Shown here: positions 2,942-5,286 of the stretch, one piece after another
Numbering within the stretch: the first letter of the stretch is position 1
Layout of the letters: the number at the start of each line of letters is the position of its first letter
NCBI GenBank assembly: GCA_012728775.1
Contig: JAAYEN010000258.1
Coordinates: 1 to 5,286, forward strand
DNA: 5,286 bases
Source: Tissierellia bacterium
GTDB lineage: Bacteria > Bacillota_A > Clostridia > Tissierellales > Peptoniphilaceae
Reading direction: 5' to 3'
Translations under genes and position numbers: made by a program
Notes under the pieces: generated by a model
Databases searched by the model: none
Told to the model about the DNA's origin: nothing
What the model saw: the letters and a program-made list of their open reading frames with translations, nothing else

Positions 2942-3442
2942 TTGACTTATTTATTAATTTTTTTCTCTAGAATTTGTGACGTGTCACTATCTACAATGAG
3001 AACAATTCTAGTGGTTCAAGGCAGAAAAATCCCTGCCGCCATATTAGGTTTTTTTGAAGTTGTAATCTACATTATGATATTGAATACTTTAATGCAAAGT
3101 ATGGATAATATATTTAACGTCATAGCCTATGGTTTAGGTTTTGCCGCAGGAAATTTCGTAGGAATAACCATAGAAGATAAGCTAGCTTTAGGTTATATAA
3201 GTGTCCAAATTATAATACCTCAAGCGAATGAAGCAGAACTTACAGAAGCCTTGAGAAAAAGGGGATATGGAGTTACTGTATTGGAAGGTCATGGATATGA
3301 AACGAAAAACTCTGTATTAATAGCAGTAATAGGAAGAAAAGAGTATGATAAATTGAGATATATTACTAAAAAATTAGTGCCAAGCTCATTTATCACAGTA
3401 AACAGTATTAAACAATGGACTGGAGGATTTTTCAAAAAATAA
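2942..3442 (+). CDS. UPF0316 / DUF2179-domain membrane protein (YebE-like)
   Basis: This is a 166-aa protein of the UPF0316 family, recognised from the opening LLIFFSRICDVSLSTMRTIL and the C-terminal DUF2179 domain. Three membrane segments are visible: about residues 1-25, 30-53 and 56-77. A cytoplasmic region follows. Residues 108-162 are the DUF2179 part (RGYGVTVLEGHGYETKNSVL... then FITVNSIKQWTGGFF), the same domain found at the C-terminus of YitT-type membrane proteins. The molecular function of the family is not established; DUF2179 is thought to be a small ligand-binding or regulatory domain. The start is TTG, supported by AGGGGTG just upstream and by the family N-terminus. It is the first gene of the operon, and its stop lies 1 nt before the rph start codon, which suggests translational coupling. 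Confidence 0.9.
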   Translation: MTYLLIFFSRICDVSLSTMRTILVVQGRKIPAAILGFFEVVIYIMILNTLMQSMDNIFNVIAYGLGFAAGNFVGITIEDKLALGYISVQIIIPQANEAELTEALRKRGYGVTVLEGHGYETKNSVLIAVIGRKEYDKLRYITKKLVPSSFITVNSIKQWTGGFFKK

Positions 3443-3443
3443 T

Positions 3444-4202
3444 ATGAGAATAGACGGTAGAAACTCTGACGAACTTAGAAGGTTAAATATAAAAAGAAAT
3501 ATTTTAGAATATCCTAATGGTAGCGTACTTATAGAAATGGGCAAGACTAAAATTATTGTAACAGCTATGATCGAAAATAAAGTTCCCATTTTTTTAAAAG
3601 GCTCTGGCCAAGGATGGCTAACTTGCGAATACTCCATGTTGCCTGCTTCTACTTCTACTAGAAAGCAAAGGGATTCTACAAGGGGAAAACAAGACGGTCG
3701 AGGAATAGAAATTCAAAGACTTATTGGACGAGCTTTGAGAGCTTCCATTGATCTTACGAAGATTGGTGAAAGGACAATTTGGATAGATGTAGATGTAATT
3801 CAAGCAGATGGAGGCACTAGATGTGCAGCTATTTCTGGAGGATTCGTCGCTCTTTATGATGCAGTTTATAAGCTATATAAAAAAGAAAATCTTAAAGAAT
3901 TTCCTATGAAGTTTTTTATGGCAGCTGTAAGCGTAGGCAAAGTTCAAGATGAATTATTATTGGATTTAAATTACCACGAAGATTCAAAAGCTCAAGTGGA
4001 TATGAATGTCATTATGAATGACAAAGGAGAATTTATTGAAATCCAAAGTAGTGCAGAGCAAGGTACCTTTAACGAAGAGGAATTTAGCAAGCTTATGAAA
4101 TTAGCTAAGTCTGGCGTAAATGAAATAATCTATGATCAAAAAATTGAACTAGAAGAACTAATAGAGGAAATAAAAAATGAAAAAGATAGTCCTAGCGTCT
4201 AA
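3444..4202 (+). CDS. rph: Ribonuclease PH (tRNA 3'-end processing phosphorolytic exoribonuclease)
   Basis: RNase PH removes nucleotides 3' of the CCA end of tRNA precursors by phosphorolysis, releasing nucleoside diphosphates; it works in the cytoplasm as a hexameric ring. The 252-aa sequence aligns end to end with the family and in register with E. coli from the first Met. Visible marks are FLKGSGQGWLTCEYSMLP (50-67), GKQDGRGIEIQRLIGRAL (81-98) with R86 and the phosphate-binding GTR motif at 124-126 (QADGGTRCAAISG). The acidic motif DLNYHEDSKAQVDMNV (174-189) supplies D174, D180 and D186. All key residues seem present, so it should be active. ATG 3444 follows the previous stop by 1 nt. The only good SD-like sequence (GGAGGA, 3422-3427) is 16 nt away, so reinitiation by ribosomes leaving the upstream gene is likely. 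The last 26 nt overlap rdgB. The charged tail after about residue 235 extends past the conserved core. Confidence 0.97.
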   Translation: MRIDGRNSDELRRLNIKRNILEYPNGSVLIEMGKTKIIVTAMIENKVPIFLKGSGQGWLTCEYSMLPASTSTRKQRDSTRGKQDGRGIEIQRLIGRALRASIDLTKIGERTIWIDVDVIQADGGTRCAAISGGFVALYDAVYKLYKKENLKEFPMKFFMAAVSVGKVQDELLLDLNYHEDSKAQVDMNVIMNDKGEFIEIQSSAEQGTFNEEEFSKLMKLAKSGVNEIIYDQKIELEELIEEIKNEKDSPSV

Positions 4203-4773
4203 TAACAAACATAAAATAGAAGAGATAAAAGAAATCATTGGAGATTTGCAAATAGAAATCTTACCTAAATCAGAAGTAGGACAAGAAAATTTTGACGTAG
4301 AAGAAACTGAAAACACTCTAGAGGGAAATGCTTTGTTAAAAGCTAAAGGACTAAAAGAATTAATTGGCCCTGAATATATAGTAATTTCAGATGATACAGG
4401 ACTTTTTGTAGACTACTTAGAGGGGGAACCTGGAGTTCATACTTCCAGATTTGCAGGAAAAGACCATGACGATGGAGCTAATAATGCATTAATGCTAGAA
4501 AAGTTAGATAACGTGCCTTATGAAGAGAGAACTTGTGAATTTAGAACTACAGTTGCAATAGTTGAAGACGGAAAAGAACCGGAATTTGTAACAGGAATTC
4601 TAAAAGGACATATAGCAAGTAGCCTCAGAGGAGATGGAGGCTTTGGATATGATCCATTATTTATTCCAGAAGGTTTCGACAAAACTTTTGCAGAATTAGG
4701 AACCCACGAAAAAAATCAAATAAGCCATAGAAGAAGAGCTTTTGAAAAATTTGCTGAGCATATTAAAGATTAA
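4177..4773 (+). CDS. rdgB: XTP/dITP pyrophosphatase (HAM1/RdgB family)
   Basis: This cytoplasmic house-cleaning enzyme hydrolyses non-canonical purine triphosphates (ITP, dITP, XTP) to monophosphate and pyrophosphate, keeping deaminated bases out of DNA and RNA. At 198 aa it is full length. The N-terminal IVLASNNKHKIEEIK (4-18) is the substrate-binding SNN/K motif. E49 and N51 lie in TLEGNALLKA. SDDTGLFVDYLEGEPGVHTSRFAG (71-94) holds the catalytic and metal-binding acidic pair D72-D73. GDGGFGYDPLF (152-162) and SHRRRAF (183-189) complete the base-recognition and active site. ATG 4177 has a good ribosome binding site (GAGGA, 4164-4168, 8 nt spacing) placed inside the end of rph, and the two genes overlap by 26 nt in different frames. 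The rph-rdgB pairing is common in bacteria, where the two are sometimes fused. In many relatives a YfcE-type phosphodiesterase gene follows, but none is seen here before the right edge. Confidence 0.96.
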   Translation: MKKIVLASNNKHKIEEIKEIIGDLQIEILPKSEVGQENFDVEETENTLEGNALLKAKGLKELIGPEYIVISDDTGLFVDYLEGEPGVHTSRFAGKDHDDGANNALMLEKLDNVPYEERTCEFRTTVAIVEDGKEPEFVTGILKGHIASSLRGDGGFGYDPLFIPEGFDKTFAELGTHEKNQISHRRRAFEKFAEHIKD

Positions 4774-4873: not shown

Positions 4874-4901
4874 ACAGCTAATTACAAAAACAAATAAAAT
4901 G

Positions 4902-4928
4902 AAAAAAATTTCAAAAAAATTTCAAAAA
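4902..4928 (+). repeat. Phased A-tract repeat, probable UP element
   Basis: The 11-nt unit AAAAAAATTTC occurs twice in tandem (4902-4912, 4913-4923), followed by a partial third tract AAAAA (4924-4928). The tracts are spaced by about one helical turn and cover roughly -65 to -39 relative to the predicted start at 4967. This is where an UP element contacts the RNA polymerase alpha C-terminal domains. Such A-tracts also bend DNA. They support a strong promoter of stable-RNA type. Confidence 0.6.
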
Positions 4929-4932
4929 GGTG

Positions 4933-4960
4933 TTTACAATTATTTTACTTGTGGTATAAT
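4933..4960 (+). promoter_or_regulatory. Strong near-consensus promoter for a non-coding RNA
   Basis: TTTACA (4933-4938, 5 of 6 consensus positions) and a perfect TATAAT (4955-4960) are separated by 16 nt, with an extended -10 TG at 4952-4953. The predicted start is A4967, exactly where the first hairpin stem begins. With the A-tracts just upstream, this is the strongest promoter in the window. Confidence 0.8.
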
Positions 4961-4966
4961 ACTTAT

Positions 4967-5240
4967 ACAAAGAATTAAAGACTCTTTGTAATTTAAAAAC
5001 CGGACCAGGCTACACTGTGAATATCATAAAAATCTAAGCTAAGAAGTTTTTTAGCGAAGTGACTAGAGGATGATGATGTTTTTAAGGGTAGTAAATTGGA
5101 TTCCTCTCAATTGAAAAAAACTGGAAATTGAGAGCGGTGCACAACTAAATATTGTGCTATACAGTTTATCATAGATTGCAGAATGGCTTATATTCTGAAG
5201 GTTTAGAGTAACTATTAAGTAAAGGTATTAGGTTTAGCTT
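4967..5240 (+). ncRNA. Candidate structured non-coding RNA or long regulatory leader (3' end undefined)
   Basis: No credible protein gene follows the strong promoter, but the predicted transcript holds a series of hairpins. H1 is ACAAAGA/TCTTTGT (4967-4973 with 4983-4989), 7 perfect pairs starting at the predicted +1. H2 is 5038-5044 with 5049-5055, 7 pairs with one G-U and a 4-nt loop. H3 is CTCTCAATT/AATTGAGAG (5104-5112 with 5126-5134), 9 perfect pairs. H4 is GCACAA/TTGTGC (5139-5144 with 5152-5157). H5 is CAGAAT/ATTCTG (5179-5184 with 5192-5197). The unpaired GC-rich segment CCGGACCAGGCTACACTGTG (5000-5019) stands out in such A+T-rich sequence and may be a conserved core. I see no terminator before the right edge, so the end is arbitrary. 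The family is uncertain: a raiA-motif RNA is a guess from size, host group and apparent strong expression. Features of 6S, tmRNA, RNase P, SRP, T-box and the common riboswitches were looked for and not seen. Confidence 0.6.
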
Positions 5241-5286
5241 TGAAATTCTATTATAAGTTTGAAAATTGTAATTTGATAATCTTAAA
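5241..5286. other. A+T-rich right-edge sequence, no gene seen
   Basis: These last bases hold no start codon with a ribosome binding site, no clear hairpin with a U-tract and no good promoter. They are either the 3' part of the RNA or the leader of a gene beyond the window. Confidence 0.4.

Follow-up and report, generated by a model that had tools for sequence, protein, structure and literature searches.

A probable new family of large structured non-coding RNAs, with a predicted rRNA-type promoter, in a Tissierellia bacterium and three related genomes

Known large bacterial RNAs and the locus at the end of the window

To our knowledge, large structured bacterial RNAs whose functions are open are few, namely OLE, ROOL, GOLLD and the smaller raiA, and a further family of this kind in one small group of genomes would offer a test case for the origin and role of large RNAs. 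OLE (ornate, large, extremophilic) is described as a structured ncRNA of about 600 nt in Bacillota with an intricate secondary structure, whose partner proteins include OapA (PMC11706538) and OapC. ROOL is described as having predicted pseudoknots and as a feature of phage and prophage genomes, where it often sits close to tRNA islands; the same source indicates that both OLE and GOLLD have Rfam models (PMC12286853). The raiA motif, or ModT RNA, is presented as a structured Bacillota RNA with two pseudoknots (PMC11706538, PMC11751092) and a length of 210 nt in C. acetobutylicum (PMC11751092). The RNA considered here resembles OLE in size and in being a structured ncRNA of Bacillota, but it has no Rfam match and was found in one small genome group only. 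Like ROOL, whose model spans 574 positions, it is large and has a predicted pseudoknot, but it lies beside glpK or rdgB rather than near tRNA islands, and ARAGORN detected no tRNA in the window or in the three relative loci. Like raiA it is a structured Bacillota RNA, with a pseudoknot that is predicted here, but it measures 533-670 nt in the relatives against 210 nt for the raiA RNA of C. acetobutylicum. Among the listed open papers on large ncRNAs, on uncharacterised large RNAs and on structured RNAs of Peptoniphilaceae or Tissierellales, no title or beginning of an abstract describes this RNA, and the genera of Peptoniphilaceae do not occur in the text of the discovery papers PMC11109978, PMC8632094 and PMC6429828.

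The window, i.e. the whole stretch of 5,286 nt that was analysed, consists of A+T-rich bacterial DNA, with the ncRNA candidate at its 3' end, past rdgB. The genes assigned by Pfam are:

1811-2860, Y-family DNA polymerase gene
2942-3442, gene for a DUF5698/DUF2179 protein
3444-4202, RNase PH gene (rph)
4177-4773, RdgB/Ham1 pyrophosphatase gene (rdgB)

The rph and rdgB genes overlap by 26 nt (4177-4202), and RdgB shares 99% identity with one protein cluster and 90% with another named 'Tissierellia bacterium'. Its relatives P0001-P0006, at 79-99% identity, point to contigs on which the RNA may also be present. At the other end of the window, two forward-strand frames (2-553 and 559-1770) are adjacent, 5 nt apart and in different frames, and neither has a Pfam match; they look like a single gene interrupted by a frameshift, either real or an artefact of sequencing or assembly. 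The features of the candidate RNA, named after the comparison with its relatives given below (A1 being the alignment of the four available sequences), are:

4933-4960, + strand, promoter: -35 box TTTACA at 4933-4938, a 16-nt spacer and an extended -10 element TG..TATAAT with TATAAT at 4955-4960
4967-5286, + strand, 5' portion of the ncRNA, which is large and structured and runs past the window end (homologues at L090, L091 and L096; leave-one-out profile)
4967-4973/4983-4989, + strand, P0, the 5' hairpin ACAAAGA/TCTTTGT (hand-drawn comparison)
5002-5015, + strand, 5' arm of P1, within the GC-rich stretch 5000-5019 (alignment with the 5' arm of the relatives)
5019-5027/5073-5081, + strand, P2 (helix on A1)
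5033-5036/5064-5067, + strand, P3 (helix on A1)
5038-5042/5051-5055, + strand, variable apical stem of P3 (hand-drawn, possible in all four sequences)
5059-5075, + strand, most conserved motif GTGACTAGAGGATGATG (15 of 17 A1 columns invariant in the four sequences)
5104-5112/5126-5134, + strand, P4 hairpin, with the invariant loop sequence AACTG at 5119-5123
5139-5157, + strand, hairpin GCACAA/TTGTGC (5139-5144/5152-5157), from folding only and not conserved
5162-5166, + strand, CAGTT, predicted pseudoknot partner of the P4-loop AACTG, inside the conserved GCTATACAGTTT (5156-5167)
5179-5197, + strand, P6 hairpin CAGAAT/ATTCTG (5179-5184/5192-5197; covariation on A1)
5200-5208, + strand, conserved motif GGTTTAGAG, which is GGTCTAGAG or GGTCTAGGG in the relatives

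An initial annotation of this DNA had pointed to five hairpins beginning at the predicted transcription start. Five stems fitting that description are indeed present (P0, the apical stem of P3, P4, the hairpin at 5139-5157 and P6), and the first of them starts at 4967; the hairpin at 5139-5157, however, has no equal stem in the three relatives when compared by eye. A mechanical repeat finder (at least 7 nt) returned five inverted pairs, only two of which are among these stems. The GC-rich segment recorded by the same annotation is likewise real (13 of the 20 positions in 5000-5019 are G or C, against 30% across 4967-5286) and aligns with the 5' arm of P1. In comparisons with dinucleotide shuffles the piece 4967-5230 gave a z of -2.77, with 1 of 200 shuffles folding equally well, and 4967-5286 a z of -2.39 (2 of 100), while the three full-length relatives reached -6.5, -3.6 and -3.6 (0 of 100 in each case); the sense strand folds better than the antisense strand in all four sequences. 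Since the window piece beats its shuffles just modestly, folding alone is no proof of an RNA.

Homologues and conserved anatomy

The nearest genomes were sought by means of RdgB, in a class sample of 245 genomes and then in 249 genomes of the order, with the closest proteins found in genomes G433 (62% identity), G431 (53%) and G432 (51%). RNA homologues were recovered in 3 of the 249 genomes of the order, and these are the same three. Based on the nearest genus-named relatives of the GlpK protein of G431, which are Peptoniphilus, Miniphocaeibacter and Anaerosphaera, all three appear to be Peptoniphilaceae-like. A blastn search of 130 genomes of the family with 4940-5230 recovered G432 as the best match (E 1.6e-8, 69% identity over 162 nt), followed by G431 (E 3.9e-5) and a third row of 26 nt with E 7e-4 and a score near that of G431; G433 gave only a weak match to the promoter (E 0.002), located where its RNA lies. 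Weak rows of this search mean little, given that 121 of the 130 genomes have a row at E <= 1. In G431, G432 and G433 the same RNA is found downstream of glpK, with GTGACTAGA.GATGAT and GCTA.ACAGTTT following each other in this order.

A covariance model (R1) built from the cores of the window, G431, G432 and G433 matched each of the three relatives once in the 249 genomes of the order (E 2e-34 for G431, 8e-39 for G432 and 3e-25 for G433), these E-values being inflated by the fact that the model was built from the same sequences. A row for G360 in this search (E 0.08) was taken as chance. Against a class sample of 391 genomes R1 matched G433 alone, under strict filters that left few scored candidates and might let diverged copies escape. 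Leave-one-out sequence profiles, searched against 182 sequences comprising 874 kb, are a more independent test of the relationship in that the profile of the three relatives alone found the window at 5006-5218 with E=4.8e-13; the corresponding profiles recovered G431 (E 5.1e-89), G432 (E 1.7e-83) and G433 (E 6e-7, with 3.3e-5 for two locus copies of shorter length). Outside the RNA loci no row in the 182 sequences fell below E 0.3 (L119 being at least 0.3), and at the RNA loci no antisense row fell below E 0.05 (all at least 0.06).

The genomic position of the RNA is variable. Searches with blastn and nhmmer of 89 loci, among them the rdgB loci of G431, G432 and G433 (the G433 contig stopping about 350 nt past rdgB), gave nothing of weight, and thus the RNA occupies a different site in the window, beside rdgB, than in the relatives, beside glpK. 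A glpK match is present in 110 of the 130 genomes; among the 30 glpK loci examined, 3 have the RNA and the other 27 have neither a motif nor a profile match, and twelve glpK-downstream regions (one of them, from G440, also among the 30) gave no profile match. A blastn search with the complete G431 RNA plus promoter matched 54 of 248 genomes, and among the matches listed all but those in G431 and G432 are at most 69 nt long; the negatives of this search show little, as G433 itself was missed by it. No match to the RNA was found in viral contigs (two patterns), plasmids or phages, and none turned up in 60 genomes from the order to which G001 and G004 belong.

Measured between its predicted start and the last T of the terminal T-run, the RNA spans 670 nt in G432, 660 nt in G431 and 533 nt in G433. 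P1 is a long-range helix of 14 bp whose arms enclose a core of about 425-435 nt, with all 14 pairs formed in each of the three relatives (CATTCAACCTATAC/GTATAGGTTGGATG, CATCCAACTCATAC/GTATGAGTTGGATG and CTTTCAAACTATAC/GTATAGTTTGGAAG). Several of its positions are changed on both sides among the relatives, and 14 pairs were reached by none of 500 shuffles in each of them. In the window no 3' partner of P1 was found, the best candidate pairing at 9 of 14 positions, and the partner is thus expected beyond 5286. The RNA does not end at 5286; the relatives imply that it probably continues for about 170-230 nt, to a total of roughly 490-550 nt; the missing arm would be GTGTAGCC-like, close to GTGTAGCCTGGTCC, and should lie within about 250 nt past 5286.

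The remaining stems are supported to varying degrees by four sequences, one of which (the window) is incomplete at its 3' end, and P0, P1, P4 and the P3 apical stem are hand-drawn. P0 is ACAAGGA/TCCTTGT in G433, which amounts to one compensatory change relative to the ACAAAGA/TCTTTGT of the window, while in G431 and G432 its outermost bases do not pair. P2 has three of nine pairs changed on both sides, whereas the pairs of P3 are invariant and hence lack covariation support; an apical stem on P3, of varying sequence, is possible in each of the four. The arms of P4 are CTCTCAATT/AATTGAGAG in the window, CTCCTAAA/TTTAGGAG in G431 and G432, and AAAGTA/TACTTT in G433. All four sequences contain AACTG in the P4 loop and CAGTT downstream of it; the five pairs of the pseudoknot predicted from them (AACUG/CAGUU) are invariant and thus without covariation support of their own. 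In P6, by contrast, five of seven pairs are changed on both sides, with 85.7% of cells paired (CAGAAT/ATTCTG in the window, and GGGAA/TTCCC, GGGTCT/AGACCC and ATAGAA/TTCTAT in the others). On A1, the 27 tested pairs of P2, P3, AACUG/CAGUU and P6 gave standard pairs in 93.5% of cells against 38-49% with the partners slid, and two-sided changes in 9 pairs compared with 1-4; these controls favour the structure somewhat, as it was derived from A1 itself and the sequences are related. Overall, four of the five window hairpins, P1 and the AACUG/CAGUU loop pairing are kept and most stems show compensatory changes, so that covariation of stems among homologues, raised by the initial annotation as a point to check, is seen in P2, P6 and P1, with P3 and the pseudoknot invariant.

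At the 3' end of the relatives, folding gives a 9- to 14-bp stem followed directly by six T residues; a pattern scanner did not list these predicted terminators, whose loops are probably too long for it. No conserved ORF crosses the RNA in the window or the relatives, in keeping with the earlier remark that there is no credible coding frame: no ORF of at least 40 aa follows position 4773 in the window, and for a 61-aa opposite-strand frame of G432, G431 offers no equivalent of 50 aa and G433 none of 60 aa.

As a separate observation, the P0 stem of G432 and G431 (L090 and L091) contains about 130 extra nucleotides, with GACAGGAAAAACGTGAATTAACTAG common to both. This insert is absent in the window and in G433, and has the appearance of a modular extra domain.

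Stand-alone RNA, regulatory leader or known family

The most probable interpretation, in which we have considerable confidence, is that these sequences define a new and narrowly distributed family of structured ncRNA, large and stand-alone, with an rRNA-type promoter and an intrinsic terminator, which would most likely act in trans. Its structured, stand-alone character is directly supported by sequence conservation, the helices, the lack of a conserved reading frame, the promoter, the terminator-like end in the relatives and the changing neighbours. An alternative put forward in the initial annotation, beside that of a stand-alone RNA, is a cis-acting leader (a riboswitch or attenuator) controlling the next gene. 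It gains some appeal from the strong promoter, which often marks the start of a leader, and from the gene downstream of the window RNA lying beyond the window end. However, in G431, G432 and G433 a terminator-like hairpin precedes the next ORF by about 187, 176 and 70 nt respectively, and these ORFs differ, encoding a PepSY lipoprotein, a similar-looking lipoprotein and a VOC-like protein (the latter two named by eye). The downstream contrast rests on G433, since the gene that follows may be the same one in G431 and G432, but the upstream neighbour differs as well, being glpK in the relatives and rdgB in the window. For a T-box or riboswitch leader in particular there is no Rfam match, and the G433 downstream gene is unlike that of G431 and G432. 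As the terminator-like hairpin ends the RNA before differing genes in the three relatives, the stand-alone option is the one of the two that survives and the leader is quite unlikely. The RNA thus combines its own promoter, a conserved structure and the lack of an ORF with a terminator, the last recognised by folding in the relatives. Still less credible, to the point of being very hard to sustain, is that chance hairpins in A+T-rich intergenic DNA were conserved just as promoter-proximal sequence: the modest folding of the window piece on its own would fit such a view, but the homologues in three genomes show covarying helices and the long-range helix, and the leave-one-out profile match extends well downstream of the promoter.

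The possibility that a known RNA has diverged so strongly as to be missed by its Rfam model applies to raiA, ROOL, OLE, GOLLD, 6S, RNase P and tmRNA, and is favoured by the OLE/ROOL-like size and architecture, that is a closed multibranch RNA with a strong promoter. A cmscan of the window with all 4227 families of Rfam 15 yielded nothing credible, and neither raiA, ROOL, 6S nor T-box, all of which had been singled out beforehand, gave a credible match. Nor did a scan with all families up to E 10, covering 4930-5286 and the full-length G431 and G433 RNAs, recover any of the seven RNAs above; sub-gathering rows for MIR408, nuoG, sn668, STnc430, mir-1743, CRISPR-DR47, mir-6, mir-3578, mir-154, Plastid-psbA-2 and SNORA2 were taken as chance. 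The raiA identity floated in the initial annotation has to be given up: the model (RF03072) produced nothing up to E 10 for any of these three sequences, although it works in 4 of 21 other Bacillota genomes (3 above cut-off), and the conserved raiA sequence GGTCTGTGGTTGAAAGTCGA...GACCAGGTCAGC, as read from model matches, is absent here by eye. The ROOL model (RF03087) matched none of the three relatives up to E 10, with a control plasmid, pMP118, scoring 130.4 bits; OLE and GOLLD were judged by the all-Rfam cmscan alone. At this RNA neither the 6S model (RF00013) nor the RNase P class B model (RF00011) finds a match; at other places, G431 and G432 have 6S matches above the cut-off, and G431 and G433 have full-length RNase P class B matches below it. 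The two models found no match in the whole of G433 (6S) and of G432 (RNase P class B), which speaks for a diverged known RNA to some degree and may reflect incomplete assemblies or another RNA class. ARAGORN made no tmRNA call in the window, L090, L091 or L096. Taken together, these results make a disguised member of a known family improbable, and with the homologues and the covariation they bear out the suggestion that the structured RNA fits no known family.

Predicted mode of action and the rRNA-type promoter

Under the favoured interpretation of a new stand-alone family, the window would hold the 5' part of a large structured ncRNA (533-670 nt in the relatives and perhaps 490-550 nt here) that would be transcribed from its own rRNA-type promoter and stop at its own intrinsic terminator. 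The 5' stem P0 would be followed by the core of about 425-435 nt closed by the 14-bp P1, within which are predicted a P2/P3 arm bearing the conserved GUGACUAGAGGAUGAUG, P4 with its loop AACUG pairing to CAGUU downstream, and P6. The anatomy suggests that the folded molecule would work in trans, either by itself or as a protein scaffold, much like OLE, ROOL or raiA RNAs, and such an assembly could be an RNP or RNA-only. The RNA may also be abundant, as judged from its rRNA-like promoter. The core, the closing helix and the predicted pseudoknot are defined well enough for direct experimental work.

The strong promoter claimed for the window RNA is present, with TTTACA and TATAAT matching the consensus at 11 of 12 positions across a 16-nt spacer in addition to the extended -10 TG, and A-tract-rich DNA at about 4900-4932, upstream of the -35 box, is UP-element-like. 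The same promoter is present at the RNA loci of G431 and G432; in G433 the -10 box is retained, the -35 box is weaker and the scan did not report this promoter. The blastn search with the complete G431 RNA plus promoter gave short matches to the promoter part in further genomes of the order: 7 of the 10 loci obtained are of this type, and in 4 of the 7 a motif of the 16S 5' end lies about 110-235 nt downstream, with no 16S motif within the available flank in the other 3. The promoter stretch is A-rich, which raises chance similarity and flatters the scores. The promoter part of the G431 RNA thus aligns with 16S rRNA operon promoters from elsewhere in the order, but the likeness is limited to the promoter and the transcripts are dissimilar. 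Furthermore, in 3 of the 12 glpK-downstream regions (L170 of G437, L171 of G434 and L174 of G435, with the 16S starts recognised by eye), an rRNA operon with promoter-like boxes directly follows glpK, which is the very place of the RNA in G431, G432 and G433. The 16S motifs downstream of promoter matches and the rRNA operons after glpK suggest that the RNA promoter is of the rRNA class and perhaps originated from an rRNA operon promoter.

A more far-reaching reading, which is attractive but on balance doubtful, would combine these points into a new 'ornate' RNA class confined to one Peptoniphilaceae-like clade, transcribed from an rRNA-type promoter to near-rRNA levels and acting as an RNA machine, predicted to be a ribozyme or an RNA-only or RNA-protein assembly. 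Such a class might stem from the takeover of an rRNA operon promoter downstream of glpK.

At a further locus (L162 of G492), whose available flank contains neither a 16S motif nor a tRNA, a promoter closely resembling that of the RNA, at about position 1502 on the + strand, is identical to the G431 copy at 35 of 40 positions.
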